From a virus, in the IMG/VR virus record IMGVR_UViG_3300047481_001404, positions 1-28,836 of that record: a stretch of 28,836 bases of DNA; one strand, written 5' to 3'. Under the pieces are notes generated by a model. It was given only the letters and a program-made list of their open reading frames with translations, ran no database searches and was not told the DNA's origin. Every line of letters starts with the position of its first letter. Position 1 is the first letter of the stretch. Position numbers and translations under genes: made by a program. Positions 5,410 to 23,300 of this stretch are shown here, in pieces.

Positions 5410-6495
5410 TTGACACGTTTATCATTGTGGAAGGACGGACAACGTACAAACGATTATCGTTTTATTGATCGAACCATATCCGAATATTTTCAAGTTGGTG
5501 GAACGGGTATTTTAGTACACAAATACCTAGGTCCAAAAGATACTGGTCCCAGCGATGATGTTACTCAACCACAATACATAAACCAAAGTGCAATGAACAT
5601 CCAGGATCTATTATTTCTTGAAAATAGAGATAGAAAATATGATACCGCAGTGTATAAAATACGTGGCATGTATCAAGTTACCGACAATGCATTTGATTTA
5701 ACACAATTTGGTTTGTTTTTACAAACTGGTACATTGTTTATGACTTTCCATATTAACGACATGTTAGAAATCTTAGGTCGTAGAATCATGAATGGTGATG
5801 TGATTGAATTGCAACACCTTATAGATTACGACACATTAGATGAATCCATACCAGTTGCTTTAAAAAGATTCTTTGTTGTCAGTGATTGTACAAGAGCAGC
5901 AGAGGGTTATAGCCCAACTTGGTGGCCTCATTTATGGCGTTGTAAAATTAATCCATTGGTTGATGCACAAGAATATCGTGACATACTTAATACCATTACT
6001 ATTAACGATGAAAGCACTACTCCTATTAGAGATATATTGAGTACCTTTGACAAATATACCGAAATTAATGATGTAATAATTGAGCAAGCAGAATCTGAAG
6101 CACCTAAAAGTGGTTACGACACAGCACCGATATATCACTTTAGCAGCAATGCAGTAACACCAACGTATTCAACTAAGGCCTACTTGGGTGGTGATGGCAC
6201 TGCACCAAATGGACTACCTGCTACTCAAGGCACTAGTTTCCCTATGAATGCCACCGAGGGACAATATTGCCTACGTATTGACTATAAACCAAATCGATTA
6301 TTTAGATTTAATGGTGCTCGCTGGATCAAAATAGAAGATAATGTTAGAACTAGCTTCACCACTAACAGCATAGATAATCTTAGTATGAAGAATCAATTTA
6401 AAAATAACTCAAATACTTTCACAGATGTACGTGGTAATACACAACCCGAAAAACAAAGTCTTCATAATTTATTAAAACCCAAGGCAGATAATTAA
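5410..6495 (+). CDS. Virion structural protein, probable gp14-like neck protein
   Basis: The 361-residue frame starts at TTG (5410); GGAG at 5399-5402 is 7 nt upstream and there is no in-frame ATG nearby. The N-terminus (MTRLSLWKDGQRTNDYRFIDR), the VHKYLGP segment and the block QDLLFLENRDRKYDTAVYKIRG (about 65-85) are of a type common in marine T4-like phage structural genes. The block from about 100 to 195 (TFHINDMLEILGRRIMNGDV, then FFVV, GYSPTWWPHLWRCKINPLVD and QEYRDIL) follows the logic of T4-like gp14: a strand pair, a GD-[LV]-[IV] turn and a terminal strand. Its position directly before gp15 fits the T4 order 13-14-15. The exact role remains tentative. Its TAA overlaps the gp15 ATG (TAATG), so the two are translationally coupled. 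Confidence 0.6.
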   Translation: MTRLSLWKDGQRTNDYRFIDRTISEYFQVGGTGILVHKYLGPKDTGPSDDVTQPQYINQSAMNIQDLLFLENRDRKYDTAVYKIRGMYQVTDNAFDLTQFGLFLQTGTLFMTFHINDMLEILGRRIMNGDVIELQHLIDYDTLDESIPVALKRFFVVSDCTRAAEGYSPTWWPHLWRCKINPLVDAQEYRDILNTITINDESTTPIRDILSTFDKYTEINDVIIEQAESEAPKSGYDTAPIYHFSSNAVTPTYSTKAYLGGDGTAPNGLPATQGTSFPMNATEGQYCLRIDYKPNRLFRFNGARWIKIEDNVRTSFTTNSIDNLSMKNQFKNNSNTFTDVRGNTQPEKQSLHNLLKPKADN

Positions 6496-7931
6496 TGAGT
6501 TCATTTTTTTACTCAGGGCAAATACGTAGGTTCTTACAACAGTTTATAAGAGTTATGAGTAACTTTGAAATAGAACTGGGGAAAAGTTCTGCAGGGATTA
6601 GTACTTTGTTAAGAGTGCCAGTTTACTATGGAGATAGTAGCAGACAGGTAGCTAGTATATTAAAACAAAATAGTGAAAATGCCCTTAGCAGTGTGCCTGC
6701 ATTGAGCGTGTATATTTCTGATTTAAAATACGATAGGACTAGAGTCCAAGAACCATACCATGTAAGCAAAATGCAAATTAGAGAACGTGCATATGATCCA
6801 CAAACCGGACAATATTCAGAATATCAAGGCGATATGCTTAGTGTTGAAAGAATGATGCCAGTTCCTTATTTGCTCACGGTAAAATTAGATATGTGGACCA
6901 GTAACACCGATCAAAAGTTACAATTATTTGAACAAATTGCTCCTCTTTTCAATCCCAGCATGGAATTACAAAGTACTGATAGTTATGTTGATTGGACTAG
7001 TCTTAGTTATATTACTTTAATAGACAGCATATTTTCCAGTCGTACAGTGCCGGTAGGTACAGAAGAACCAATTGACGTGCATACTTTTGTATTTGAGTTA
7101 CCAATTTGGATCAGCTTACCAGCAAGAGTTAAAAAACAAGGAGTTATACAAAAAATTATTGCCAGTGTATATGATGCCGAAGGCAGCATAGATCACGAAA
7201 CTAATAATTTCGATCTGGGTGCCACGCAGATTATGACCAAAAAAATATTTACGCCAATTGATCTTAATATTGTCTATACAGGTAATACAATAAAGTTGTA
7301 CCTGAGTGAGAATGAAATTGAATTTAATGATAATATAGATCCACCACTGAGACCAGGTGATTGGCATGTTGCTATACAAAGTTTTGGTGAGCTAGCAGGG
7401 GCTAGCCCTAACACTGAGTTATTGACCAATGGGTTAAGTCAAATTAGATTAGAAAATGACAATATTACAATTGTAGGCACAGTTGCTTATCATCCAGTTG
7501 ATAGAAGTTTGTTAATTTTTAACGTTGATATCGACACATTACCTGTGAATACTCTGGTGCCAGTTAATGCCATAATTGATCCTTATAATGTTACTATTGA
7601 TAGTAATTTAACATTTCCATTGATTGGCACACGATATTTAATTATCAATCCAATTGGTCATCCTGATAACGATGACACAGATCCCTACAGTGTAGATGGT
7701 CCCGAGCTTTGGAACAGATTGAATCAACCACAACTTATTGCTAGGGCTAATGACATAATAGAATTTGATGGTAACAAATGGTTCGTAGCCTTTGACAGTG
7801 CTACATCAATTAGTGTAGAATATGTAACAAACTTGACCACTGGTACTCAATATAAATGGAAAAATCAACAATGGAACAAGAGCGTAGAGGGCCGCTACGG
7901 AGTAGGGGCTTGGAGTTTCGTGCCAAATTAA
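6495..7931 (+). CDS. gp15: Tail sheath stabiliser / tail completion protein, gp15-like, C-terminally extended
   Basis: The N-terminal part (about 1-225) has the features of T4-like gp15: an S-F-F-Y-S-G-Q-I-R-R start, VPVYYGD at about 43-49, a long ISDLKYDRTRVQEPYH region, a MMPVPYLLTVKLDMWTSNTDQ strand-helix block at about 120-140 and LPIWISLPARVK near 205-215. In T4 gp15 (272 residues) caps the tail tube and sheath after tail assembly and connects to the gp13/gp14 neck. This protein is 478 residues; the extra part, about 230-478, is rich in beta-type sequence and Asn/Asp and may be a domain unique to larger marine phages. It is coupled to the gp14-like gene by TAATG. A weak AAGG precedes the start. 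Confidence 0.75.
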   Translation: MSSFFYSGQIRRFLQQFIRVMSNFEIELGKSSAGISTLLRVPVYYGDSSRQVASILKQNSENALSSVPALSVYISDLKYDRTRVQEPYHVSKMQIRERAYDPQTGQYSEYQGDMLSVERMMPVPYLLTVKLDMWTSNTDQKLQLFEQIAPLFNPSMELQSTDSYVDWTSLSYITLIDSIFSSRTVPVGTEEPIDVHTFVFELPIWISLPARVKKQGVIQKIIASVYDAEGSIDHETNNFDLGATQIMTKKIFTPIDLNIVYTGNTIKLYLSENEIEFNDNIDPPLRPGDWHVAIQSFGELAGASPNTELLTNGLSQIRLENDNITIVGTVAYHPVDRSLLIFNVDIDTLPVNTLVPVNAIIDPYNVTIDSNLTFPLIGTRYLIINPIGHPDNDDTDPYSVDGPELWNRLNQPQLIARANDIIEFDGNKWFVAFDSATSISVEYVTNLTTGTQYKWKNQQWNKSVEGRYGVGAWSFVPN

Positions 7932-8344
7932 CCGAAGGCGTCGGTGCTTTAATTTACTGCAAAAATACTGGAAGATATCTTTTTTTACTTCGAAGTAACG
8001 GCAGTTATGCTAATACATGGGGATTGCCTGGTGGTAAGTTAGATACCAATGAAGCAATGGACGTTGCTTTACTAAGAGAAATCCGTGAAGAACTAGATGG
8101 TTATATTAAAGACCCAGAACTTGTTCTAATAGAAAGATATGTAAGTAGTAATAAAAAATTTATTTACCATACTTACTTTATGTCGGTGGACAGCGAATTT
8201 GTTCCAGGATTAAATGAAGAACACGTCGGCTATGCATGGTTACCGTTATCGGTCGCACCAAAACCTTTGCATCCTGGACTAATTAGAACCTTAAACAATC
8301 AATCAGTAATGAATAAGTTAAAAAAAGCTGAGTCTAACTGTTAA
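7910..8344 (+). CDS. Nudix hydrolase
   Basis: The Nudix box is clear: GGKLDTNEAMDVALLREIREEL gives G-x5-E-x7-R-E-I-x-E-E. The residue two after the last Glu is Asp where Gly is usual, followed by Gly. Nudix enzymes hydrolyse nucleoside diphosphates linked to another group (for example oxidised dNTPs, NADH, ADP-ribose or nucleotide sugars); the substrate cannot be told from the box. I prefer TTG at 7910, with GGAG at 7899-7902 exactly 7 nt upstream, giving 144 residues and a 22-nt overlap with gp15. The in-frame ATGs at 7856 and 7871 lack a ribosome site and would force a 61-76 nt overlap. It ends against the convergent methyltransferase gene, sharing TTAA at 8341-8344. Because a sugar cassette follows, a nucleotide-sugar substrate is possible but unproven. 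Confidence 0.85.
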   Translation: MEFRAKLTEGVGALIYCKNTGRYLFLLRSNGSYANTWGLPGGKLDTNEAMDVALLREIREELDGYIKDPELVLIERYVSSNKKFIYHTYFMSVDSEFVPGLNEEHVGYAWLPLSVAPKPLHPGLIRTLNNQSVMNKLKKAESNC

Positions 8345-8877
8345 ACTCTAATACCATAAAAATATAAATCATGCACGATTGTATTAGTGCTGAATTCAAA
8401 TTGCTTAAACTCACTCTCAAACTTACAAATCTTCCTAAAATCTTTCTCTGTTAAATTCTTATAATAGTCCCATCCTGCTGCCACAGTCAATGGTGAAACA
8501 CGCGGCTCACAACAACTGGTTCCATGTTCGGCTCTACCAACAGTGGCGCAACTAAAAATAATTAACCCACCAGGCTTACATAGTCGCAACATGTTAAGAA
8601 AAGTTTTTTCATAAAAAGGATCATGTTCAAAACATTCGCAACTTATCACACAATCAAATGTAGCAGTTGGCATATCATATTCATGCCCGAGGCCAACTAC
8701 ATCTACGCCTGGACCAGTGGCAATATCCAATCCAATATATGCACAATTCGTAAATAAAGGCCTAACTGAACCGTTTATATCTAAACTTCCTATTTCTAAT
8801 ACAGTGCTTTTATCAAAGTATTTTGGATACTGTTTTTTTACGAAACTAACAAATTCTATTTGTTGCTTATGTGACAT
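8341..8877 (-). CDS. Class I SAM-dependent methyltransferase (Methyltransf_11-like)
   Basis: The 178-residue product has a standard class I fold order: motif I VLEIGSL (26-32), the acidic residue after beta-2 (D51 in YIGLDIATGPGVDVV), the FDCVIS strand (74-79) with CECFEHDPFY, and a post-motif LCKPGGLIIFS (99-109). Such enzymes move a methyl group from SAM to small molecules, lipids or sugars. It is the last gene of the minus-strand cassette and overlaps the upstream GT-A gene by 11 nt. Methylation of a sugar made by the neighbouring enzymes is the likely role by context. No substrate-specific motif is visible. Confidence 0.85.
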   Translation of the reverse strand: MSHKQQIEFVSFVKKQYPKYFDKSTVLEIGSLDINGSVRPLFTNCAYIGLDIATGPGVDVVGLGHEYDMPTATFDCVISCECFEHDPFYEKTFLNMLRLCKPGGLIIFSCATVGRAEHGTSCCEPRVSPLTVAAGWDYYKNLTEKDFRKICKFESEFKQFEFSTNTIVHDLYFYGIRV

Positions 8878-9676
8878 CTACTGCTGCCCACCTAGCCTGC
8901 CAATCAATATGTGGATCTCGTTCTAGTTCGCTTTGGACATGCAATGCTAAACTAGTTATGGGCACTAATCCTAATACACCACGCTGGGTCAACATATAAT
9001 TTAAGCTACGGTTTTCTAAATCTCGATCTTCTGAGGTTAGCTTTTCTAGCAAAACAAAAAACATATCATACAAATCCCAGTGTTGACTAAACTGCCTGTG
9101 ACTAGTGAAAAAGCTACAACTCATGTCATAGTATTGGATCCAATAGCGATGTTTGCCTACTATCACAGTTCTAGGTGTGGGTCGATTTCTATAAGGGCTT
9201 AGCCAAAGCCAACTGTCATTATATGGACTAATTACGCAATCTGATCCGGTTTCATTATGTACTTGATAAAACATAGATGCAGATTCTTCTAGGCAACTGG
9301 GTTCAAATAAGTAATCATCCTGTACTTGAAATACGAAATTTTGTCCTTGATCTTGCAGCCAAAGATAACATTGTCGTATACCTTGGCAAATACCACCGGG
9401 ATCAAGATTATAAATTTCAATATGAATATTTTCTTTTCTATCACGGGCAAGTTCTTGATCTAACCATGTCTGTAAATTATCACTAGAACGATCCATGACC
9501 AATCTCAAATAGTGTTCTGTGTCAGATCGTTGGGCCAGTTGATCAATTGATACTAATAAAGATTTTATACTTTTCTTACTTAATAAAGTTCTATCATCAC
9601 CGCAGTACCTAGGCTTACCTTCTCGGCTGGCTAAGTCGCATACTTGCATGGCATAGTGAAATTTTATTGTTGACAT
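8867..9676 (-). CDS. GT-A type glycosyltransferase (GT2-like)
   Basis: The 269-residue protein has glycosyltransferase A features: strand segments HYLRLVMDRSSD (55-66) and IHIEIYNLDPGG (84-95), a helix with GICQGIRQCYLWL, then the acidic metal and nucleotide site QVQDDYLFE (117-125), and a late LALHVQ with a possible metal-binding His. Residues 1-13 (IKFHYAMQVCD) look like the first beta strand rather than a signal peptide. It probably transfers a sugar from a nucleotide-sugar donor in the cytoplasm; donor and acceptor are unknown. Its ATG overlaps the end of the FkbM gene by 13 nt, so the pair is coupled. The family call rests on pattern and is less certain than the Asp-Asp motif itself. Confidence 0.7.
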   Translation of the reverse strand: MSTIKFHYAMQVCDLASREGKPRYCGDDRTLLSKKSIKSLLVSIDQLAQRSDTEHYLRLVMDRSSDNLQTWLDQELARDRKENIHIEIYNLDPGGICQGIRQCYLWLQDQGQNFVFQVQDDYLFEPSCLEESASMFYQVHNETGSDCVISPYNDSWLWLSPYRNRPTPRTVIVGKHRYWIQYYDMSCSFFTSHRQFSQHWDLYDMFFVLLEKLTSEDRDLENRSLNYMLTQRGVLGLVPITSLALHVQSELERDPHIDWQARWAAVDVT

Positions 9677-10419
9677 AAAATGTTGTTAGCTTGCCGTTCA
9701 AATCGATATCCAAACGGTGTAAGAAAACCCACTATATCTTCATAGATACTGCGTACATTATCACTGTGTTCAATATAGATAGCAGGAAGATATTTGGTAA
9801 TCACAACAGTACCACCTTGTAACACTTCAAGATCCATGCCTTCAACATCTATTTTAAGTAAATCTATTTGTTTAATATTATAGTATTCAACAAACCAATC
9901 TAGTGTTTTAACTTCAACCACAAAGCGTTGATCAGTAATGGGCAACTTTGCTCCAAGTAGACTGAATGTGCCAAAGTCTTGCGTAGAATAATAATCAGGT
10001 TCGTAGGCATTAATTCGTTGTTCCTGTCTACCTAATCCATAAGGAAAGGCTCGAACATTATAGTAATTGTTTAAAGCCATGTTACCACATAGCATATTAA
10101 ATACTTGTGGTTGTGGTTCAAAGCTGTAGATTTGACCCTGAGGATAAGTTCGTGCAAACCAAGTGCTAAATGTACCAATATTAGCACCAATATCAAATAT
10201 AACAGGATCTGGTCTTGTTATAGCACTCATACAGGCATGTGCTTCGATGGTATTTGAATTACCATGATCTAACAACCACTGACTGTGGCCTACACCTTCG
10301 CAGTTGTCAAATCTACTAACAATCATCATGCCATGATCTGTCTGTAGCAAGACATTACGGGAAACGCGATCTCTTATACTGTTAAGGTCACTGGTAAAAA
10401 AGTTTCTTGAAAAATCCAT
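9664..10419 (-). CDS. FkbM-family methyltransferase
   Basis: This 251-residue protein carries the FkbM signature: IFDIGANIGTFS (74-85, SAM-binding motif I), YSFEPQPQVFNML (98-110), and DLLKIDVEGMDLEVLQGG (186-203), the last being the diagnostic [LI]-K-[ILM]-D-[VT]-EG block. FkbM enzymes O-methylate sugars and natural products and are common next to glycosyltransferases in surface-polysaccharide and protein-glycosylation loci. Its ATG overlaps the stop of the upstream methyltransferase as TAATG. The family call is confident. O-methylation of a sugar made by this cassette is inference from context. Confidence 0.9.
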   Translation of the reverse strand: MDFSRNFFTSDLNSIRDRVSRNVLLQTDHGMMIVSRFDNCEGVGHSQWLLDHGNSNTIEAHACMSAITRPDPVIFDIGANIGTFSTWFARTYPQGQIYSFEPQPQVFNMLCGNMALNNYYNVRAFPYGLGRQEQRINAYEPDYYSTQDFGTFSLLGAKLPITDQRFVVEVKTLDWFVEYYNIKQIDLLKIDVEGMDLEVLQGGTVVITKYLPAIYIEHSDNVRSIYEDIVGFLTPFGYRFERQANNILCQQ

Positions 10420-11036
10420 TACTTTTTGTAGCCACGATACCAGTCAGTGTATCTGCCAGGTTTATGTACCCGAATCCAAAGGCTAACAGTTTCGCCCACA
10501 TTACTCATGGTATTAAAGTTAATATTGAGTTGTTTAGCACCAACCATGCCTTCGGCTTGTTGTTCACGCCAATAGCCTACCATAGTATAATCTTCGTTAT
10601 ATACTTCAAGATCTACGCCAAGGTAAAACCCATGAGTGCTATCGCTGAGTTTTTTGGCGATAGACTCAAAGTTGACCTTTTGGTCAAACATTTTCATGCT
10701 CTTAGCAGTGAGTGGGCGAACATGAGTAAAATCATCCCAAAATAAGTCACATCTATGGTGCGGGAAGTTAATAAACCATTCAGCTTGATCTTCACTGACT
10801 CGATACATTTCCTTAATGACCTGAGCAAAGACCCGGGGGCTTTGACCTAGGTGTTCTAATATATTGTCAGCATTGATTTTCTTAAAAAAGTTATCTTCGT
10901 AAGGCCAAGGGAATTGTTCAAAATCTAATACTTGGTCTGGGTTACAGCCAGCTTCGATATCAACATTCCAATGATCATCTAGTTTTTTAAAACCACAACC
11001 CATGTTAAGGTTACGGTGTTCGGGTGTTATATCCAT
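10419..11036 (-). CDS. Class I SAM-dependent methyltransferase-like protein
   Basis: Starting from ATG at 11036 the product has 205 residues. It has a SAM-site loop LNMGCG (10-15), an acidic residue after the next strand (NVDIEAG, 24-30), ADNILEHL (56-63) in the place of the usual D-x-[IV]-x-x-x-x-V-L-E-H segment, and a long C-terminal beta part that departs from the standard core. It resembles the small methyltransferases found beside glycosyltransferases in phage and bacterial surface loci. An in-frame TTG at 11045 could extend it by three residues; I prefer the ATG, which overlaps the sulfotransferase stop by 10 nt. The substrate is unknown. The C-terminal 100 residues contain no motif I recognise. 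Confidence 0.75.
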   Translation of the reverse strand: MDITPEHRNLNMGCGFKKLDDHWNVDIEAGCNPDQVLDFEQFPWPYEDNFFKKINADNILEHLGQSPRVFAQVIKEMYRVSEDQAEWFINFPHHRCDLFWDDFTHVRPLTAKSMKMFDQKVNFESIAKKLSDSTHGFYLGVDLEVYNEDYTMVGYWREQQAEGMVGAKQLNINFNTMSNVGETVSLWIRVHKPGRYTDWYRGYKK

Positions 11037-11830
11037 GGTGTCCAAAATATCTCTCTATTATATTGTTCAAACAAATCTAAACCAATGTATTTTACACAAT
11101 TTACAGTGGTCTTTTCAAGACTAGGTTTAAGGGTTAGGGCACTATCATACCCAGCAATTTGATCATTATAGTGTTCTGTCTGTTCGATCTTTTCAAAGTC
11201 ATGGTCGAATGGCGTCATTTCGAAAAACTCATATATGCGACGAGTTTGACTCTTTGGATTACTGCAATATCTATTATAATCGATAAACAACATACGATCA
11301 AGATATCCCATAGTAACAGCGTCTTTGATATTTCTATGACAAATACCTAATATACCTTCCGGGCCGGCAATATGATAAGCACGACTGGCAATGCTACTAC
11401 CACCTTTAAGGGAATGATCAACGCGACTATAGAATAACGGATTACGATTACGCATTCGTTCATAACTGGTTATGATCTCGGCAGGATTACGTACACATAC
11501 CAACATCTTGATTGGTCGTTCTAGAATTGATTCAATCAGTCCAATGTGACTAACCCAACCAAAGTCTCGATCAAATACTTTGGGCTTGTCGACATGATTA
11601 TAGTACCCATCCACTATACCACGCATTACGCCGAATTTGGCTGACTGATTTTTCAATACACAATTTTGTTCGATTGAGTCCCATGTACTAAGTGTATTAT
11701 CTAATACTCCATGTAACGAGCTTATGCTTTGACCATGGATTTCAGGATTTTGATTAAGAATAGCAGTGATTAAGTTACTACCTGACCTAGGAAGACCTGC
11801 TATAAAATTAAGTGTTTTCTGTTGTGTCAT
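11027..11830 (-). CDS. Sulfotransferase (PAPS-dependent, Sulfotransfer family)
   Basis: I start at ATG 11830 (MTQQKTLNFIAGLPRSGSN), giving 267 residues and a 23-nt overlap with the upstream glycosyltransferase gene; a more upstream in-frame ATG at 11986 would lie deep inside that gene. GLPRSGSN (12-19) is the 5'-phosphosulfate loop that binds PAPS, and VCVRNPAEIITSY (111-123) is the matching 3'-phosphate motif (R-N-P-x5-S). Enzymes of this family move a sulfuryl group to a hydroxyl or amine on carbohydrates, lipids or peptides. PAPS would come from the host. Flanking glycosyltransferases and methyltransferases suggest a sugar acceptor. Sulfotransferases are known in some marine phages but are uncommon. 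Confidence 0.88.
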   Translation of the reverse strand: MTQQKTLNFIAGLPRSGSNLITAILNQNPEIHGQSISSLHGVLDNTLSTWDSIEQNCVLKNQSAKFGVMRGIVDGYYNHVDKPKVFDRDFGWVSHIGLIESILERPIKMLVCVRNPAEIITSYERMRNRNPLFYSRVDHSLKGGSSIASRAYHIAGPEGILGICHRNIKDAVTMGYLDRMLFIDYNRYCSNPKSQTRRIYEFFEMTPFDHDFEKIEQTEHYNDQIAGYDSALTLKPSLEKTTVNCVKYIGLDLFEQYNREIFWTPWI

Positions 11831-12857
11831 TGTTTGAAAATCTCTTATTAAGTTCTTGATGTACTGTTTCGAAAGTATTATCCCATTCACCAAAAATGGT
11901 TTGTCTAAATACCCTAGTAGTTTCTGGGTACCATGGGCTGTGGTCTTGGCCATAAGCCCATACATGATAAGGTAATAATGGAACAATTACCCATGTTGGT
12001 TTACCCATTGCTGCTGCGAGATGTGCTATACTAGTACAGGATGTTATTACCAGGTCTAGGTTTTCTATACAGGCTGCGGTATCTTCCCAACTAATGATAA
12101 TATGTTGTAGATCATATATTTGCTCAGGAAGTTCTCTGGTATCTGTGTCTCGCTGTAGACTATAAAATTGTATGTGAGGATTTTTCTTATACAAATTAAT
12201 CAATGACTCAGGTGGAAAAATCCTAAACTGCTGGTGTTCGAATAATGGACTACCACTCCAGCGTATACCAACTTTAGGACGCTCAGATTTAATTAAGTTT
12301 TTCCAAATCTCTACACTGTCAAAATTAGCAAACAAATATGGTTCGCGTGGTAAAGTTTCAAATGTATGCCCAAATAACCAACTGCAACTGAATCCAGGAA
12401 TCCAAAAATCATGTGCAGTTTGAGGTACTTCGTCTAAAGTAATACATTTTTTTGTGCCTGGTATTCTATTGAATATACTGTGTAGACTTTTTTCAGCACA
12501 CAATATGGCATTGCCCCCACGACGCCAAACTTCAGTAGCAAATCTGGCATAGATAATCTGATCCCCAAAACCACATTCCATATTTAAAATTACAGTTCGA
12601 TCCTTGAGATCGGTTTTGCCATCCCAAATTGGTTTACTGGTATTGATTTTACCGGATCCATATACACTAAGATGTCTGCCGGCTTCGAGACACTGAAACC
12701 CTTCTTGTAAATTTCCTTGATTTATCAAAAACCAACCGCGATTGAATCTGGCTCTGAGGTCATTAGGGTCTTGTGCTTCCATTTCTTGTGCAAGACGCCA
12801 TCCTTCTTCGAATCGACCACGAATCATTAGATTTAATTGTTGATCAATTAAATGCAT
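11808..12857 (-). CDS. TPR-containing glycosyltransferase (heptosyltransferase/GT9-like)
   Basis: The 349-residue protein has one or two tetratricopeptide-like helical hairpins at the N-terminus (about 1-62: GRFEEGWRLAQEMEAQDPND, then GWFLINQGNLQEGFQCLEAG). These are followed by a GT-B domain of the ADP-heptose transferase type. Visible marks are ECGFGDQIIYARF (94-106), KVGIRWSGSP near 213, LDLVITSCTSIAHLAAAMGK (about 268-287), the donor-site region, then PTWVIVPLLPYHVWAYGQD and SPWYPETTRVFRQ. TPR plus GT9-like enzymes are common in marine phages and in protein-glycosylation loci, where the TPR can hold a peptide acceptor. AAGGAG lies about 8 nt before ATG, the best ribosome site in the cassette. 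It is 26 nt after the second RCC1 ORF, so it likely shares its transcript. Confidence 0.85.
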   Translation of the reverse strand: MHLIDQQLNLMIRGRFEEGWRLAQEMEAQDPNDLRARFNRGWFLINQGNLQEGFQCLEAGRHLSVYGSGKINTSKPIWDGKTDLKDRTVILNMECGFGDQIIYARFATEVWRRGGNAILCAEKSLHSIFNRIPGTKKCITLDEVPQTAHDFWIPGFSCSWLFGHTFETLPREPYLFANFDSVEIWKNLIKSERPKVGIRWSGSPLFEHQQFRIFPPESLINLYKKNPHIQFYSLQRDTDTRELPEQIYDLQHIIISWEDTAACIENLDLVITSCTSIAHLAAAMGKPTWVIVPLLPYHVWAYGQDHSPWYPETTRVFRQTIFGEWDNTFETVHQELNKRFSNNDTTENT

Positions 12858-12882: not shown

Positions 12883-15800
12883 TTATGCTAGTCCGTAGCT
12901 GACAAATGAATTTCCACCCAATGCTACATTGCTCCAATTTGCACTGCCAATCTGTGTAGGACTAGATCTATTTTGGTTTATGCCTATTCCTAATTGCCCC
13001 CTGACATTGAGCCCCCATGAATACAGCTTGTCGTTGGAATTGATTGCAGCCGAATGACTGTTTCCTGCTGCTAGAGTTTTCCAGCTGCTGGCTCCAACTT
13101 GTACCGGGCTTGCACGAGAAACAGTGGTACCATCGCCTAACTGTCCAACATTATTCAAACCCCAAGTAAACAATAGATCACCGCTGTCTATGCCCATACT
13201 ATGGGCATTTCCAGCCGCTATTTTTTTCCATGACCCTGTGCCAATTTGAACAGGACTTGATCGTGTAGCCCCACCTTGACCCATGACAATTGGACTAAGT
13301 CGGTCAATAGTGGTACTATCCCCCAATTGGCCAAAATCATTTTCTCCCCAAGCATAAGATAACTGAGTAACCGAATCCCATCCTATGCCAGATTGGGGAT
13401 CGTCATTGGCAGTACTATCTTGTGATGAAAATTTTGAATAGGAATAAACTTCGTATTGTTTTGGCCATAACGAAGTAAAAGTAAACCTATCAATGTCATC
13501 ACCGGTACCTAGCTGTCCAAAATTATTTTTTCCTGCTACAAATACATTACCATCGTATGTATATGCAGTTTGATAAACACCTACTGTAACTTTAGTAAAA
13601 TTACCAGGACTACCTACCAGCACAGGAGAGTTAACTATAGAAGTGTTTGCAGTTGTTCCTACCTGTATAGGACTTAAACGATTTATACTACTACCTAGCC
13701 CTAGCTGTCCTGCATTGTTTAAACCCCAAGTATATAATAAATTATTAGTACCAATGGCAGATGTGTGTGTTCCGCCAGCTGATACCCTAGACCAATTTGA
13801 TGTTCCTACTTGCACAGGACTAACATAACTTAGTAAATAAGTACCACTGGTATTATCTATTCTAGCTTCGACCCGAACATGAGTAAGGTAACAAGATTCA
13901 TTGGTAATGGCTTCGTTTAGCCCGAATAAATGATCTACGGTGAGGTTTTCTTGTGTATGATCTATCCAACCAGTGTCGATTTCTACATATCCGTGAGAAC
14001 TAGTAGTACCAGTTTCTGGTGCATATGAATACCCTGTGTCAGTACCAGTGCTAGTAAATGATGCTTTCAATAAATTATTAATCGTTGTGGTAATAGATGC
14101 GTTAGTGTAGAGTTTAGTAAATGACAGGTAACGCACTCCGTCAATGTCTAATGTATTAGTTTCTCCGTCATGAGTATCAACAAAATGCCAATAGACTTGA
14201 TATCTGATTTGATTATGTACAGGTAAATTTTTTAGTGTTAGGATAAAATTAGTTGATGGTACATACCCATGCCCAGTGCCAGATCCTAGGAAACCAAAGT
14301 TATCCATAGACTGTGTAGTGGTGTTGCTCCAATTTGACACATAAGCGGCAGCATTTAATCCTTCATCATACTGATATACAGTTTCAACATATCTATCAGT
14401 GCCCAGTTGTCCTAGGCTATTTAGACCCCAGGCATACAATTTATTAGAACTGTTAATAGCAAAAGAATAATTGTCGCCTGCCGATATTGCAGTCCACGAG
14501 CTTGAACCGATTTGTACAGGACTAGACTTAGATACAGTAGTACTATCCCCTATCTGTCCGACAGAGTTCACACCCCAGGTAAACAATGTTCCGCCAGACC
14601 TAATAGCTGCATTATGACTCAGCCCAGCACTAACAGCAGTCCATGAACTATTACCAATTTGTATAGGACTAGACTTATTGGTAGTAGTACCGTCGCCGAT
14701 TTGACCAGAACTGTTTAATCCCCATGCAAATAGTGTTCCACTAGCATTAATTGCCACAGTATGACTAGCACCAGATGCTACTGCGGTCCATGAACTTGAT
14801 CCGATTTGCACAGGACTTGATTTATTTACTGTGGTGCCATCACCTAGCTGTCCTGCATTGTTTAACCCCCATGTATACATAGTTGAATTGGAGGTGATAG
14901 CAAAAGTATGAGTGCCCCCGGGATATACATTAGCGAAATCAGCAACAGCATCAATATTGGCAGTAAACGGATTAGATTCTGTAATTGAAATAGACCCCGT
15001 TTGTGTTAACACATAAGCACCAGCGGATTTATCTAATAGAGTAGAACCATTACAAGTTAAAAGTATAGTAGTACCCGAGCCAGCAACACCCAATGACGTT
15101 GTAGAAGGCGTAAAATTAGCAGTGTATAACTGATCTCCTTTAACTATTCTAAGGTTGCTCATGGATCCTAGAAAATAAATTGCTCCGCAAGCATCAAATC
15201 TTCCAATAAGCGGAGCACCAAAGTTTGCCGTTTGGGTTGAAAGATTTCTAGCGGTAGCCGTACTAATTATTCCACCCACAAACAAATTTATAGTAGTACT
15301 AGTGGAGGTAGTTGCATTTAATGTCATGGCTACATGAGTCCATGTGTTAGTACTAATATTGGCACCGGTGTGTCTGAACTGATCTTGAGTGCTGGTACTT
15401 GTGGTCCACCCGAATTCAACTTGACCAGTGGTCGAGGAGGTTCCTACAGCAACTAAATACCAACGACCGTTTCCAGCTACACAAGCATAAGTTGCCATAA
15501 TGACATTACTAACATTGTTAGTGAATGAAGTAAAATATACCCAAACTTCTACCGTCCAAGTTGTTCCAGCCCAACCTCCCATGGCTGTATTAAACGCCGC
15601 CGATGTACTTAAATAACCATCAGGACCAAACTTCCAACTTATGTTACTAGAGGTAGATAGTAACCCAACAATAGCTGGATTGGATTGATTACTTACTACT
15701 GCGGTTCCTAACTGACCAGAAGTGCCTAATCCCCAAGCATATAAATATCCGTCCTGTCGCTTGGCAAATGATGTATTACCTCGGGCTGCTATTAGAGTCC

Positions 15801-17316
15801 AAGAACTTGCACCAACCTGCACTGGACTAGACTTGCTTATGGTAGTGCTGTCACCTAATTGCCCTGATGTGTTTAGTCCCCAAGCAAACAATAAGCCATC
15901 ACTTCTAATAGCCACAGTATGACTGGCTCCACTAGCTACTGTGGTCCAACTTTGAGTTGTCATACCATATGTTGTGCCTAATTGTCCTTCTGCTGCTCTA
16001 CCCCAAACAAACAAATAATTGTCTGTTCCAGAAAGTATAGTACCCGCAGTATGAAACATACCAGCGGATATTGCAGTCCATGAACTTGAACCGATTTGCA
16101 CTGGACTAGATTTTGTCACAGTGGTGCTATCACCTAGTTGCCCACTAGTGGCAACTCCCCAGCCAAACAATGTGCCACCGTTACGTATGGCCATACTATA
16201 CCCATTACCGGCACTAACTGCTGTCCAAGAACTTGATCCTATTTGTACCGGACTTGATTTGGTCACTGTGGTACTATCACCTAGTTGTCCACTAGTACCT
16301 AGTCCCCAAGTAAATAATGTAACACTGTTGCGAATTGCCACAGTGTGATAATTACCAGCTGATACAGCAGTCCAAGAGCTAGATCCAATTTGTGTAGGAC
16401 TAGATTTGTTCACAGAGGTGTTATCACCTAACATACCAAATACATTTAGTCCCCAAGAGAATAATGTACCTCCACTACGAATGGCCACTGAATATCTTGC
16501 ACCAGCACTGATAGCGGTCCACGAGCTAGTACCAATTTGCACCGGGTAAGGTCGGTCAATTGTGGTGCCATCGCCTAATTGTCCTTGATTATTTCGCCCC
16601 CAGGCATATAATTTACCAGTTCCATATTGTATTGCTAAGACATGATCATGTCCAATTCTAATATCAGACCAACGACTTTCAGACGCAGTCAGGGCGGGAA
16701 CTCCTAATTCTCCGTTTACCCCAGATCCCCAGGCGAATAAATTTCCTGTACTGGTTAAGGCAAGATTATGTAATTGACCGGCTGATATTGCTGTCCATGA
16801 ACTTGAACTGATTTGTACTGGACTAGACTTATTTACTGTAGTACTGTCGCCCAATTGCCCAGTGGAATTTAATCCCCATACAAATAATATATTATCCAAC
16901 CGTATGGCTGTTGTATGTGCGTTACCGGCTGCAACTGCGGTCCACGAACTTGACCCGATCTGTACCGGTGTAGACTTATTTACAGTGGTGCCATCTCCTA
17001 GTTGACCAATTGAATTAAGTCCCCAAGAAAACAGCTTGCCATCTTGTCTAATAGCGGCAGTATAACTATTACCAGCCGATACAGCAGTCCATGAGCTTGA
17101 ACCAACTTGTGTGATAGTGGATCTATATACCGTGTCGCCTGTGCCTAGTTGCCCAGCATTATTAAGTCCCCAGGTAAAAAGTATGCCATCACTACGAACT
17201 GCGGCAACATGGCTGGTACCTACACTCACCATAGTCCAACTTTGCACCCCAGTGTCTATCTTAGCTGGTTGATTTCTGTCTTTTAATAAAGCTGATGGGA
17301 CTGACTTATCACTCAA
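12883..17316 (-). CDS. RCC1-repeat / LamG protein, second giant ORF (probable adhesin or fibre-like virion protein)
   Basis: The 1,477-residue frame holds about 20 RCC1-type units of about 49 residues with the core W-[TS]-x-[VI]-x-[AS]-G-x-x-H-[TS]-x-A-[IL]-R, then [LI]-[FY]-x-W-G-[LR]-[NG], then GQLGD and KSSPVQ[IV]G. A LamG-like lectin domain lies at about 556-791 and an unrelated beta-rich insert at about 976-1162. Each RCC1 unit normally forms one blade of a seven-bladed propeller, so two to three propellers would fit. There is no signal peptide or transmembrane segment, which suits a virion protein assembled in the cytoplasm. It starts at TTG (17316-17314), overlapping the TGA of the upstream ORF, with GGAG 7 nt before. 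That start lies inside a broken RCC1 unit, so it may not be an independent start but the -1 continuation of the upstream ORF. Function as a receptor-binding protein is inferred. Confidence 0.85.
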   Translation of the reverse strand: MSDKSVPSALLKDRNQPAKIDTGVQSWTMVSVGTSHVAAVRSDGILFTWGLNNAGQLGTGDTVYRSTITQVGSSSWTAVSAGNSYTAAIRQDGKLFSWGLNSIGQLGDGTTVNKSTPVQIGSSSWTAVAAGNAHTTAIRLDNILFVWGLNSTGQLGDSTTVNKSSPVQISSSSWTAISAGQLHNLALTSTGNLFAWGSGVNGELGVPALTASESRWSDIRIGHDHVLAIQYGTGKLYAWGRNNQGQLGDGTTIDRPYPVQIGTSSWTAISAGARYSVAIRSGGTLFSWGLNVFGMLGDNTSVNKSSPTQIGSSSWTAVSAGNYHTVAIRNSVTLFTWGLGTSGQLGDSTTVTKSSPVQIGSSSWTAVSAGNGYSMAIRNGGTLFGWGVATSGQLGDSTTVTKSSPVQIGSSSWTAISAGMFHTAGTILSGTDNYLFVWGRAAEGQLGTTYGMTTQSWTTVASGASHTVAIRSDGLLFAWGLNTSGQLGDSTTISKSSPVQVGASSWTLIAARGNTSFAKRQDGYLYAWGLGTSGQLGTAVVSNQSNPAIVGLLSTSSNISWKFGPDGYLSTSAAFNTAMGGWAGTTWTVEVWVYFTSFTNNVSNVIMATYACVAGNGRWYLVAVGTSSTTGQVEFGWTTSTSTQDQFRHTGANISTNTWTHVAMTLNATTSTSTTINLFVGGIISTATARNLSTQTANFGAPLIGRFDACGAIYFLGSMSNLRIVKGDQLYTANFTPSTTSLGVAGSGTTILLTCNGSTLLDKSAGAYVLTQTGSISITESNPFTANIDAVADFANVYPGGTHTFAITSNSTMYTWGLNNAGQLGDGTTVNKSSPVQIGSSSWTAVASGASHTVAINASGTLFAWGLNSSGQIGDGTTTNKSSPIQIGNSSWTAVSAGLSHNAAIRSGGTLFTWGVNSVGQIGDSTTVSKSSPVQIGSSSWTAISAGDNYSFAINSSNKLYAWGLNSLGQLGTDRYVETVYQYDEGLNAAAYVSNWSNTTTQSMDNFGFLGSGTGHGYVPSTNFILTLKNLPVHNQIRYQVYWHFVDTHDGETNTLDIDGVRYLSFTKLYTNASITTTINNLLKASFTSTGTDTGYSYAPETGTTSSHGYVEIDTGWIDHTQENLTVDHLFGLNEAITNESCYLTHVRVEARIDNTSGTYLLSYVSPVQVGTSNWSRVSAGGTHTSAIGTNNLLYTWGLNNAGQLGLGSSINRLSPIQVGTTANTSIVNSPVLVGSPGNFTKVTVGVYQTAYTYDGNVFVAGKNNFGQLGTGDDIDRFTFTSLWPKQYEVYSYSKFSSQDSTANDDPQSGIGWDSVTQLSYAWGENDFGQLGDSTTIDRLSPIVMGQGGATRSSPVQIGTGSWKKIAAGNAHSMGIDSGDLLFTWGLNNVGQLGDGTTVSRASPVQVGASSWKTLAAGNSHSAAINSNDKLYSWGLNVRGQLGIGINQNRSSPTQIGSANWSNVALGGNSFVSYGLA
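13830..14390 (-). other. Unique beta-rich insert domain within the RCC1 protein
   Basis: About 187 residues (roughly 976-1162 of the second ORF) break the RCC1 pattern after GQLGTDRY and before SPVQVG. The segment FILTLKNLPVHNQIRYQVYW, then FVDTHDGETNTLDIDG, resembles the L-x-NLP-x-H...D-x-W-DG pattern of secreted jelly-roll-like domains. It lacks the LamG motifs, and no second copy exists in the window. Confidence 0.5.
14942..15650 (-). other. LamG-like domain in the second RCC1 ORF
   Basis: The coded segment has the concanavalin A-like lectin (LamG_3) hallmarks: WTVEVWVYF, NTWTHVAMTLN, LFVGG, and GSMSNLRIVKG, then YTANFTPS. It is followed by the connector PFTAN...FANV that leads back into an RCC1 unit, as at the other four LamG domains. 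Confidence 0.75.
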
Positions 17317-20300
17317 GATATATCTCCAAGTTGTCCAACATTGTCAGTACCCCAAGTCCATATATGATTATTAGCACTGATACCCATGCTGTGGCCTGTT
17401 CCTGCTGTAATTGCAGTCCATGATACTGAATTATTTGCCGAACTGATTAACACTGGACTAGACTTATTTACTGTAGTTCCATCACCAACTTGATATGTTG
17501 AATTCAATCCCCAAGCATATAATGCACTATCACCGGAAATAGCCACTGTATGGCTATCACCGGCTGCAATCGCAGTCCAACTACTACTACCAATCTGCAC
17601 TGGACTAGATTTATTCACTGTGGTACTGTCTCCTAACTGACCGGATGCTGCTAGACCCCAGGTAAACAATGTGCCGCCTGACCTAATTGCTACAGTATGA
17701 GCCCCACCTGCACTAACTGCTGTCCAAGAACTTGATCCAATGGCCACTGGACTTGATTTGCTGGTAGCAGTACTATCTCCCAATTGACCACTTGTTCCTA
17801 ATCCCCAAGCATACATTCTATTTGTTATGTCTAATGCTACTGAATGACTGGCTCCTGCCGATACCGCGGTCCATGAACTGAAACCAATCTGTTGAGGCTG
17901 TGATCTTGTAGTAGCAGTACCATCACCAACTTGACCTACATTATTAAGTCCCCAGGCCCATAGTAAACTATCTGCTCTGATAGCTAATGTATGAGCAGCT
18001 CCGGCACTAACTGCTGTCCAAGAGCTTGCACCGATCTGTACCGGGCTGCTACGATTTATAGTATCACCGGTTAATACAAGAACAGGAAGAGATTTAGAAG
18101 TTGCAGTGCCATCACCTAACTGACCTGAGGTACCCAATCCCCAAACATACACTCCAGCAGTTGACCCAATAGCCACACTAAAAGCATCACCGGTTGATAC
18201 ATTTGCCCAGGTAGAATTACCAATTCTAAATGGCGTGTATCTAATCGATGTTGCATTATCGCCAATCTGTCCCGACGAGTTTAATCCCCATGTAAACAAA
18301 CCTCCTGCAGAATTTATAGCCATTGTATGTGTGGGTCCTGCTGCAATAGCAGACCACGAATTTGATCCAATTTGTACAGGACTGCTTTGTGTAGCAGTTA
18401 TACCCGACTGTATTACAACCACTGGAACTGACTTGTTTACGGTGGTAGCATCACCAAGTTGTCCACTTGAATTCAATCCCCAAATAAATGCACCACCTAA
18501 ATCTGTTGTTACTGCGGCAGCATGATCTTTACCAATTGATACTGAAACCCATGAAAGATTTTCTAACCCATATGCAGCACCACCTATAATTAATGGACTA
18601 GATTTATTCACTGTGGTGCCATCGCCTAACTGCCCAGTGGCATTAAACCCCCACATGAATAAACGGTTATCGCTGCGTATAGCAGCCGAGTTACTTAAAC
18701 CAGCTGCCACTACCGACCATGAATTTGTGCCAATTTGAATAGGGCTAGACTTATTAACTGTGGTATTGTCGCCAATTTGTCCTGATGCATTTAATCCCCA
18801 AGTAAACAGTGTGCCACCTGACCTTATAGCCATAGTATGGAAACCGCCAGCGGATACAGCAGTCCATGAGCTTGAACCAATCTGTACCGGACTTGACTGA
18901 GCTCCGACTATAGCATTGTCTCCAACTAATTGTGGACTAGATTTAGCTATAGTGGTACCATCGCCGATTTGTCCAGAACTATTTGTTCCCCAAATATATA
19001 ATAGATTACTGCTTGTGATAGCTCCACCGTAATTGCTATCTGTGCTAATAGCTATCCAACTTTGGCTTCCAATTTGTACAGGACTAGATTTAGCCACTGT
19101 GGTACTATCTCCAAGCTCGCCTGAGCTAGCGAGACCCCATGTAAATAATGTGCCACCGGAACGAATAGCCATTGTATAACTTGTGCCTGCCGCTACTGCG
19201 GTCCAAGAACTTGAACCTAATTGCAATGGACTTGTTCGGGTCACTGTGGTGCTGTCGCCTAATTGTCCTGTATTATTTAGACCCCAGGCATAAAGAGTGC
19301 CTGTGTTATTAATAGCAGCACTATGACCATCACCAGCTGAAGCTACAGACCATGAGGTTCCGGTTCCAATCGGCACTGGTAACGATCTGTTATCTAGGGA
19401 ATTTATGCCTAACAGCACTGGACTAGATTTATTAATAGTAGTACTATCTCCTAGTTCACCAACACTGTTTAATCCCCAGGCCAACAACATATTATTTGCA
19501 GAAATAGCCAGGCTTGCAGTAGATCCAGCAGTTATCAGCGTCCAGGAACCGGAACCGATTTGCACTGGACTTGATTTTGATACCGCTGTACCGTCACCTA
19601 GTTGTCCTGAAGTTCCTAATCCCCATGCGTACAAAATATTTGTACTATTAATTGCTAAACTATGTGTAGAACCCGCTGCTACCGCAGTCCAGGAGCTCGA
19701 TCCAATTTGCACCGGGCTACCTTTGGTTACAGCGGTACCATCACCCAGCTGGCCGCTGGTTCCTAACCCCCAAGTAAACAATGTTCCACCGTTGAGAATA
19801 GCTAAGGTATGTGCTCCGCCACTGGCCACTGCCGCCCATGACTGCGAATTAACTTGTATGGGAGAACTTCTACTATAAAAATCAGCATTACCACCGATTA
19901 CCACTGGGCTTGACCTATTAACGGCGGTGGCATCTCCTAATTGTCCTGAACTATTTAATCCCCAAGTAAATAATGTTCCATCTGTGCGTATAGCAATGCT
20001 TTGAGTATCCCCTGCTGATATTATTGTCCACGAACTTGATCCAATTTGCACCGGACTCGATTTTGAAACTGCTGTGCCATCACCCAATTGCCCTGATGTG
20101 CCCAAACCCCATGCGTATACAAGGTTGGCTGATATTCCTAAGGTATGCGATCCTCCGGCAACAATGGCTGTCCATGAACTGGAACCAATTTGAACAGGAC
20201 TTGACCGAACAATTGTAGTTCCGTCGCCCAATTGCCCACTGGAATTAAATCCCCAGGTCCACAATGTGCTATCAGATCGGATAGCCGCAGTGTGCGTTCC

Positions 20301-23300
20301 GCCAGCTGATACCACAGTCCAAGAACTTGAATTAATTTGTACTGGGATCGATTGAGTATACGGAAACGCTGTGCCACCTAGTAGTACAGGACTAGATTTA
20401 TTAACAGTGGTGTTATCACCAATTTGTCCATAGTTATTCCATCCCCAAATTGAAATATTGTTACTGTTAATACCCGCGGTGTGATAACGCCCACCTGTTA
20501 TTACTGTCCACGAAGCTGAGGTACCTACTTGCACAGGACTAGATATCGCAGTCAATGACAAATTGCCTAATTGACCTTCACTTGCTCTGCCCCAAGCAAA
20601 TAGTTTTCCATCTGAAGCTATTGCTACGCTATGGGATTCTCCAGCTGAAATCGCTGCCCAGGAGCTTGATCCAATTTGAACAGGACTAGATCTATCAGTG
20701 TTTGTACCATCACCGACTTGTCCAACATTGTTATATCCCCAGGCAAATAATGAACCACCTGAACGAATAGCTAAACTATGATATTGGCCGGCAGCAACAG
20801 CCGTCCATGAACTATTCCCTACTTTAGTCGGAACATACTTGTCTTCGGTGTCAAACTGACCACCCACTTGTACTGGACTGCTATAGTTGGTAGTATTGAT
20901 TAATCCAAGTTGCCCTAAATTATTATAACCCCAAGTGTATAAGTAATTGTCTGCTGCAATCCCAGCCGCATAATATTCACCTTCACCGGCGGTTATAGCT
21001 ATCCAAGAAGCACTACCAACTTGAACTGGACTTGATCTAGTAGTAGCCGAACCGTCGCCGATTTGTCCTTCTGTACCGCGTCCCCATGTAAACAAAGTAC
21101 CGCCTGACCTTATGGCCACAGTCATAAATTCACCAGCAGCTACAGCAGTCCAAGAACTTGATCCTAGCTGTGTTGGGCTATTTCTAGTAACAGTATCACT
21201 TAATCCAAGTTGGCCGTAATCATTCCCACCCCAGGCAAACAACAAACCATCGGTTCTAATAGCTGCGGTATGTGTTTTACCAGCAGCTACCGCCGTCCAT
21301 GAACTGTTTCCAACTAATCTTGGGCTAGTTTTTGATAACCACAATGTGGCCACTGCCACCGGGCTAGATTTAGCAATGGTAGTGCTGTCACCTAACTGTC
21401 CACTGGATCCTAGTCCACCAGCCCATATATACTGTCCACTAAAATCAATAGCATATGTATTATGCTGCCCTGCTGCTATTTGGACCCTATCTCCTAGGTA
21501 ATTACTTGCGTCTGTGCCGCCCATTATGGGTGCAAAGGAATCCCTGCCATAGCCAATTCCGTTTTTCCTAGAAGTAGGCGCATTTACATTACTTGTGGAC
21601 CCACTCCATACTTGCCCCGAAGCTCCTAATCCCCAAGTGTAAAAATTACCAGTTGTGGTTAAAGCCACTGTATGGCTGTACCCAGTCTCAACTTGAGCCA
21701 CAGTTTCTAAAAGTCCCGCAATCACTGGTGAGTTTCTATTAGTAGTAGTACTATCGCCTAACTGTCCAGAAGCATTAAGACCCCAGCTCCAAACACTTAA
21801 AGAATCTTTTATACCCACAGTGTGACTTTGCCCAGCTGATATTGCTGCCCATACGCTGGTACCAATTTGTACAGGACTACTGCGATTATTAGCAGTACCT
21901 GTTAGACCAATTCCTAATTGACCAACATCATTCTTACCCCATGACCACAATGTACCATACCAAAGTGGATTTGGTGAAACACCTGCTTTAATAGCTAAAC
22001 TATGATCCCCACCAGCTGCAACCATTACCCAAGAATCGCTACCAATTTGTACGGGACTAGATTTATTTACAGTAGTACCATCACCTAACTGTCCTGATGC
22101 ATTTGTGCCCCATGTAAATAATTTGCCATCCGAACGAATAGCCATAGTATGGCTAGTGCCTGCGGCCACTACTGACCAAGAACTTGTTGAAAGAATTTGG
22201 AATGGTTGATATTTCGTTCGAGTGCCGGTGCCATGGCTTTGACCACCCATTACCACCGGAGAAGAGACGTTACCGCTAGTGCCGTTAACTCTACCATAGT
22301 TTCCGGCGCTATTAATTCCCCAGTGCCATAGTGTTCCATCTGCTTTAATTGCTGAGGCATGACTGTTACCGCCCCCCAATGTGGTTTTATACCCTGTAGT
22401 CCACCAATCTCCATCTGCTCCAATTTGTACAGGACTGGATTTGGCTACCATGGTGTTATCCCCAAGCTCACCACTAGTGCCTTGCCCCCAGGAATATAAT
22501 GCACCGTTAGTTCTTAATCCATGAGCAGTATATTGGTAAATTTTAACATCATGCCAATCAGTGAATGACCCCACTTGAACAGGAGAAAGACGAGATACTG
22601 TACTATTAAGACCCAAAGTTGTACCATTACCCCATGCATATAATTCACCATTGGTTATACCAAGAGTAGTAGTTCTCCCGCAAGTAATAGTAGACCAAGA
22701 ATTGTTAGCTACAGCACCAGCAATTTGCGTAGGACTTGATTTAGCTATATTTGTATTATCACCGACTAGGCCAGCATTGCCCCAACCAAATAATATACCA
22801 TCACTTCTGATAGCTGCGGCCATGAATAAACCCATTTCTACCATGGTCCAATTACTTGTACCTATCTGAACGGGACTAAACTTATCAACTGTGGTACCAT
22901 CTCCAAGTAGACCCGATGAGTTTCTTCCCCAGGTGAATAATTTTCCATCACTACGAATAGCAGCAGAATTGGCAAAACCAGCAGATACCCAAGTCCAACT
23001 TTCACCACCAATGGGTGTAGGGTAAGATTTGGCAACTGTGGTTCCATCACCAATCTGTCCAAAAGTGTTGTATCCCCAAGCATACATTTGTCCATTGGAA
23101 TCCAGTGCTACGATATGGCTGGCACTAGCCGATGCCATTGACCAAGTTTTATATCCAATTTGATTTGGGCTGTAAGTTACCTTAGGATCACTGACTCCGG
23201 CAGTTGTAAATGCAGTAGATCCCCAAGTAAACAGTAATCCATCATTGCGAATAGCAACAACTAGGCCATCACCGGCAGAAACACTTTTCCAACTATGTGT

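Follow-up and report, generated by a model that had tools for sequence, protein, structure and literature searches.

A probable adhesin-dedicated glycosylation cassette linked to RCC1 beta-propeller genes in phages and predatory bacteria

Here, we analysed a cassette of six genes for putative sugar-building and sugar-capping enzymes that adjoins two genes for RCC1-repeat adhesins in the IMG/VR virus record IMGVR_UViG_3300047481_001404, the whole 28,836-base stretch of which (hereafter, the window) belongs to a T4-like myovirus. The six open reading frames (ORFs), at 8341-12857, share the minus strand with the RCC1 ORFs, and successive genes overlap by 23, 10, 1, 13 and 11 nucleotides (nt), from the first, which encodes a tetratricopeptide repeat (TPR) protein with a GT-B glycosyltransferase domain (TPR-GT), to the last, which encodes the methyltransferase MT-A. 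This is the arrangement described in the original prediction, namely, six same-strand genes overlapping by 1-23 nt. The adjacency of the cassette to the second RCC1 ORF (12883-17316) was likewise correctly recognized, the gap to the TPR-GT gene being 25 nt rather than 26, with AAGGAG before the TPR-GT ATG. The genes, with cassette coordinates given for refined ATG starts and protein families assigned with Pfam, PHROGs and NCBIfam, are as follows:

17313-28832, minus strand: giant RCC1/LamG adhesin, 3839 amino acids, possible acceptor (46 repeat stretches above the PF00415 cut-off, 4 LamG matches to PF13385)
12883-17316, minus strand: RCC1 adhesin, 1477 amino acids, most likely acceptor (17 RCC1 repeat stretches above the PF00415 cut-off, 1 LamG match to PF13385)
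11808-12857, minus strand: TPR-GT, TPR plus GT-B glycosyltransferase, proposed priming enzyme (weak PF01075 match, TPR, AlphaFold2 model)
11027-11830, minus strand: sulfotransferase (ST) of the type using 3'-phosphoadenosine-5'-phosphosulfate (PAPS), with a PRSG motif and a fold like that of tyrosylprotein sulfotransferases (TPSTs) (PF00685, AlphaFold2 model)
10419-11036, minus strand: MT-B, S-adenosylmethionine (SAM)-dependent methyltransferase, third core gene (phrog_6636)
9664-10419, minus strand: FkbM-family methyltransferase, accessory (PF05050, TIGR01444)
8867-9676, minus strand: GT-A-like glycosyltransferase with an invariant QDDY motif, accessory (family alignment; PF00535 in the relative L007)
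8341-8877, minus strand: MT-A, SAM-dependent methyltransferase, accessory (PF13489/PF08241, phrog_32762)

The family searches agree with the predicted complement of two glycosyltransferases, three methyltransferases and one sulfotransferase, the assignments of the TPR-GT and the GT-A-like protein resting on weaker or indirect evidence. The ST matches PF00685 at 54.5 bits (cut-off 22; E-value 1.4e-14), with R15 and G17 of the PRSG PAPS-binding motif invariant and S16 nearly so. The FkbM methyltransferase matches PF05050 (4.5e-22) and TIGR01444 (117.3 bits against a cut-off of 37.7), MT-A exceeds the Methyltransf_23/11 cut-offs, and MT-B corresponds to phrog_6636, annotated as 'methyltransferase' (1e-6). 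The GT-A-like protein itself has no Pfam glycosyltransferase match, its QDDY motif being invariant in the family alignment, and a 31%-identical relative, L007, exceeds the GT2 cut-off (PF00535). Single-sequence searches of the PDB with the TPR-GT and the ST yielded no match, and relatives had to be sought by profile and by fold. The TPR-GT scores 16.9 bits against PF01075 (family GT9), below the gathering cut-off of 22, and 25 of the 34 members of its family match PF01075, only at E-values up to 0.1. The best Foldseek matches of its AlphaFold2 model (predicted local distance difference test score, pLDDT, 88.4) are 3tov, 1psw and TibC, with E-values of about 1e-6 and template modelling scores of about 0.5; matches to the GT41 fold of the OGT/SPINDLY type are weaker. 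The N-terminus of the model is all helical and TPR-like, D99 of the xGD motif is invariant in the family alignment, and Cys274 is the sole invariant cysteine among the 34 sequences.

A survey of phage contigs revealed a persistent association between these enzymes and RCC1 proteins. Seventy IMG/VR contigs encode a close relative of the ST, nearly all in the order RCC1, TPR-GT, ST. In 58 dereplicated phage cassettes, the TPR-GT is present in 51, the ST in 45, MT-B in 44, the FkbM methyltransferase in 25 and the GT-A-like protein in 18; the core of the cassette is RCC1-TPR-GT-ST-MT-B, and FkbM, the GT-A-like protein and MT-A are variable accessories. Of the six-gene order that the original prediction proposed to look for beside RCC1 or LamG genes, this core recurs and the other three genes vary; cassettes of other phages contain accessory GT25 and 2-oxoglutarate (2OG) oxygenase genes. 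All 48 cassettes in which the region upstream of the TPR-GT is readable include an RCC1 gene, located immediately upstream in 43 (median gap 45 nt), separated from the TPR-GT by one extra ORF in L042 and L145, and downstream in L049, L050 and L055. The same arrangement reappears in numerous divergent contigs and so is not due to chance; nor does it reflect general synteny of the region, because the genes flanking the cassette vary from locus to locus. The TPR-GT is 57-78% identical among these phages, compared with only about 45% for gp15, the tail-sheath stabiliser encoded in the window at 6495-7931, in the loci that have a gp15 of the same structural type (L013, L015, L029). RCC1 relatives are rare, being found in 26 of 50,697 phage records. 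Near full-length TPR-GTs at 29% identity or more are encoded by BUCT-ZZ01, S-SRM01 and AG-345-E08, all of which have RCC1: directly followed by the TPR-GT in BUCT-ZZ01; as RCC1-TPR-GT-2OG oxygenase with a separate RCC1-ST pair in S-SRM01; and a few genes before the TPR-GT, with a second RCC1 directly before the ST homologue, in AG-345-E08. No such cassette was found in the 5-kb flanks read around the RCC1 adhesin genes of the Gram-positive phages, namely, those of Clostridioides, Brevibacillus, SP-15 and Listeria.

Two further observations concern the surveyed records. In 17 of the 58 cassettes, a protein cluster, c6 (e.g., L066:3422-4276), combines a P-loop kinase with an NMN-adenylyltransferase-like domain, resembling NadR, with a possible link to NAD; its match to adenosine-5'-phosphosulfate kinase, which had been considered as a source of PAPS, is doubtful given the NCBIfam assignment of the second domain as NMN-adenylyltransferase-like. 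Three 42,586-base 'phage' records listed under two host genera, L303 (ON073792.1), PP438404.1 and PP438434.1, gave identical scores with the RCC1 query; judging by the genes read in L303, which include polysaccharide export and sugar transferase genes, this record resembles cyanobacterial more than phage DNA.

The RCC1-enzyme module is not phage-specific. A scan of bacterial genomes for the TPR-GT recovered 23 contigs, many with RCC1 directly beside the TPR-GT, including genomes of Bdellovibrionota and methanotrophs; contigs L161, L162, L173 and L175 may be phage or prophage. Pfam RCC1 matches occur in 14 of 15 genomes with a TPR-GT versus none of 14 control genomes, and often the only RCC1 contig listed for a genome is that of the TPR-GT locus. 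In Bdellovibrionota, RCC1 adjoins most of the strong TPR-GT matches, several of them on megabase-sized contigs. When 107 TPR-GT domains were placed in a tree, 49 of the 57 members of an RCC1-linked clade (Shimodaira-Hasegawa-like approximate likelihood ratio test support, 97) proved to be RCC1-adjacent, and several of the remainder are located at the end of a contig or in a short locus, whereas none of the 37 members of a separate clade of generic TPR-GTs has an RCC1 neighbour. The SCTS motif that we considered as a mark of the RCC1-linked enzymes is present in the generic TPR-GTs as well. The suggestion in the original prediction that the phage decorates its own adhesin gains support from this contrast between 48 of 48 readable phage loci and 0 of 37 generic TPR-GTs. 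The same note would have been undermined by homologues consistently lying away from adhesin genes; the cassettes carry RCC1 in phages, cultured cyanophages, Bdellovibrionota and methanotrophs alike.

Thus far, the most probable explanation, in our assessment, is that the cassette encodes an adhesin-dedicated glycosylation pathway for the adjacent RCC1 beta-propeller, with a first sugar, probably heptose, that is then capped by sulfate and methyl groups. In the first step, the cytoplasmic, GT9/TibC-like TPR-GT would transfer this sugar, presumably from ADP-heptose, to Ser/Thr residues of the repeated RCC1 loops, the short TPR arm recognizing the RCC1 repeats. Subsequently, the ST would sulfate and MT-B would methylate the first sugar, and the accessory enzymes (FkbM methyltransferase, GT-A-like glycosyltransferase and MT-A in the window; GT25 and 2OG oxygenase elsewhere) would extend or diversify the cap. 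For the virion adhesin, the most likely consequence would be tuned adhesion, greater stability or shielding. The computed support consists of the conserved RCC1 linkage, fusions of the core enzymes, the RCC1-linked clade, fold similarity and Hld-like genes; we infer the catalytic activities, heptose as the sugar, RCC1 as the acceptor, sulfate and methyl groups as caps and the influence on adhesion. The Ser/Thr-rich loops of each RCC1 blade, SSSW and SSP in the 12883-17316 adhesin, appear to be candidate acceptor sites, the Ser/Thr content of the SSP loop being 79-84% in phage partners and 71-82% in bacterial partners. N-glycosylation sequons in the RCC1 repeats were considered and set aside, the N column being variable (31%). 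The Tat (twin-arginine translocation) pathway exports folded proteins, and the RCC1 proteins near the TPR-GT in Bdellovibrionota (L253, L254, L255, L257, L261 and L168) bear the Tat motif (S/T)RRxF in each of the six genomes where the start of the protein can be seen (the motifs being TRRQFLE, SRRDFLK, SRRAFLL, SRREFIA, SRRTFLV and TRRGFIK), which fits modification of a folded RCC1 propeller in the cytoplasm before export.

Fusions of the core enzymes bear on whether they share a substrate. The ST and the TPR-GT are fused in four loci, as ST-TPR-GT (L171:1096-2838, L173:1293-3032) or TPR-GT-ST (L138:8001-10004, L236:15001-16929), the TPR-GT is fused to MT-B in L150:8001-9716, and a GT-A-like domain is fused to a methyltransferase in L060; except for the latter, the fusions directly adjoin RCC1 in the loci read. 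Such fusions among glycosyltransferase, sulfotransferase and methyltransferase imply that these enzymes probably act on one substrate in sequential steps. Could the ST instead be a protein-tyrosine sulfotransferase that modifies the adhesin itself, the glycosyltransferases having some other role? TPST1/2 are indeed its best structural and profile matches, and the closest Foldseek match of its AlphaFold2 model (pLDDT 86.9) is 5wri, with the tyrosylprotein sulfotransferase fold (3.9e-8). However, identity to the TPSTs is only about 15%, carbohydrate sulfotransferases match the model with significant E-values as well, and the column near the catalytic Glu of TPST varies in the ST family, being Q in the window, as judged from the alignment. 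Furthermore, the fusion to the TPR-GT in four loci favours a sugar acceptor and suggests that the ST acts on the glycosylated product. We therefore regard direct tyrosine sulfation as the least probable of the alternatives considered here.

With respect to the donor, ADP-heptose is the best supported, with moderate confidence, because the closest folds are those of GT9 heptosyltransferases and TibC and because eleven phage cassettes (L002, L005, L008, L009, L014, L029, L057, L150, L152, L154 and L159) contain three or all four genes of an HldE/HldD-like block. The block is complete in nine of the eleven, and an HldD-like epimerase is present in nine; the best NCBIfam matches of block representatives are heptose-1-phosphate adenylyltransferase (5e-29), heptose-7-phosphate kinase (1.5e-38) and ADP-heptose 6-epimerase (1.5e-65), the fourth protein being a cupin.

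Several observations weigh against dedicated heptosylation of the RCC1 protein. The HldE/HldD-like matches are all below the curated NCBIfam cut-offs, and most cassettes, including that of the window, have no Hld genes. The Asp conserved in the DS/DT motif of the GT9 C-lobe aligns with Cys274 in the TPR-GT, so that the donor may be something other than heptose. In L214, L223, L229 and L234, RCC1 genes of this repeat type, SSSW repeats included, are followed by opposite-strand genes and have no TPR-GT in view; the loops of unpaired RCC1 proteins bear the same serines, whereas the SSSW loop is missing from the bacterial RCC1 partners. Hence the serine loop motif does not predict the enzyme, and we rejected the idea that SSSW/SSP loops mark those RCC1 proteins that are paired with an enzyme. 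Finally, the published interpretation of glycosyltransferase-rich islands in pelagimyophages (PMC7029224) and jumbo cyanophages (PMC7824862) is modification of host lipopolysaccharide (LPS).

Under the latter scenario, the cassette enzymes would modify LPS or capsule of the infected host, blocking superinfection or readsorption, and the neighbourhood of the adhesin would be a host-recognition island. The presence of GT25, an LPS-type enzyme, and of Hld genes in some cassettes is compatible with this possibility. However, the TPR-GT tracks RCC1 rather than phage lineage or location, in bacteria likewise, and host LPS modification does not explain why it follows RCC1 into bacterial genomes. In addition, the window cassette includes no membrane or flippase partner, none of its six proteins has a transmembrane-like stretch, and a first enzyme that stays constant while the later ones change does not resemble the tracking of diverse host surfaces. 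Host surface modification thus appears unlikely, although it is the strongest of the competing explanations. Still less likely, in our view, is that the pathway decorates a small molecule or another virion protein, such as the long fibre whose gene precedes RCC1, and that RCC1 only binds the product in the manner of a lectin. Long fibre-like ORFs are indeed found upstream in several loci, including giant ones in Bdellovibrio L166 and L167 that are reminiscent of predator fibre adhesins, but these ORFs vary between loci, RCC1 being the constant neighbour.

Adhesin-dedicated glycosylation by the TPR-GT cassette would have precedents. TibC heptosylates the Escherichia coli adhesin TibA and belongs to the BAHT family, which includes the TibC-TibA and AAH-AIDA-I pairs (PMC4358343). 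The TPR-GT resembles these systems in that the gene for a soluble GT-B enzyme lies beside that for a repetitive adhesin, TibC is among its best fold matches, the GxGD-type Asp is invariant, and ADP-heptose-type genes are present in some cassettes. An RCC1 adhesin accompanies all 48 readable phage cassettes, the adhesin being of a different type and its modification predicted. By contrast, the TPR-GT lacks the four-cysteine iron finger, for which TibC needs Cys339, 342, 358 and 370 (PMC4358343), and has a TPR arm in place of the BAHT N-terminal beta-barrel; its neighbour is an RCC1 propeller protein rather than an autotransporter, ST and methyltransferase genes follow, and the cassettes are mostly found in phages. 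The best reading of this comparison is that the cassette would work like TibC-TibA, with the TPR-GT falling outside the BAHT family. Similarly, the TPR-GT shares the GT-B fold and the C-lobe motif with the GT9 LPS heptosyltransferases WaaC/WaaF but scores below the Pfam cut-off, has Cys in place of Asp, is fused to TPR and is linked to RCC1 rather than LPS genes. Like OGT/SPINDLY of GT41, it combines TPR with a GT-B domain, an arrangement for modifying proteins in the cytoplasm; it differs in the short TPR arm, the GT9-type C-lobe motif and the lack of a Pfam GT41 match.

Among phages, the 'LPS biosynthesis' clusters of jumbo cyanophages and pelagimyophages (PMC7824862, PMC7029224) encode the same classes of proteins (PfkB kinase, nucleotidyltransferase, cupin, epimerase, glycosyltransferases and methyltransferases), and those of pelagimyophages sit near tail-fibre genes (PMC7029224); RCC1 does not appear in the text of either paper, and the RCC1-TPR-GT-ST linkage is unreported there. 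Virion proteins are glycosylated in mycobacteriophages, where, according to the account of Freeman et al. 2023 given in PMC12619734, the targets are capsid and tail-tube proteins. Searches of an open-access library of papers yielded no account of glycosyltransferases or sulfotransferases linked to RCC1. Thus, adhesin-dedicated protein glycosylation is known in kind, and what differs here is the enzyme family, the acceptor fold, sulfation and the phage context. It is conceivable, and we advance this only tentatively, that the cassette represents a previously undescribed adhesin-modification system common to phages and predatory bacteria: RCC1 blades would be heptosylated by a TPR-GT9-like enzyme and the sugar capped by the ST and methyltransferases, yielding, among other products, a sulfated virion glycoprotein from a phage-encoded pathway.

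Some neighbouring genes of the window deserve mention. The gp15 protein (PF16724) is distantly related to those of Phosso, Atu_ph07 and PA5oct. Within 6495-8344, a gene for a nudix hydrolase shares 76 nt, in another frame, with the 3' end of the gp15 gene; the nudix ORF overlaps gp15 also in the relatives L001, L013, L015 and L029, and the gp15 match in Pseudomonas phages corresponds to a nudix annotation. A small plus-strand ORF at 1327-1665 with CxxC motifs looks like an HNH endonuclease and adjoins a P-loop kinase-like ORF at 1649-2293.

The recurrence of the adhesin-enzyme pair in dozens of phages and in predatory bacteria suggests a widespread, undescribed form of adhesin decoration. Phage glycosyltransferases encoded near tail fibres are usually interpreted as modifiers of the host surface; an enzyme of this class that stays with RCC1 adhesins in phages and bacteria alike, and that occurs fused to a sulfotransferase or methyltransferase, points instead to the virion's own binding protein as the target. 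The standing ambiguity as to whether phage sugar enzymes act on host LPS or on the virion thereby becomes directly testable and, if the proposed pathway is real, models of adsorption, the immunogenicity of phages and the use of RCC1 domains as binders would all be affected.

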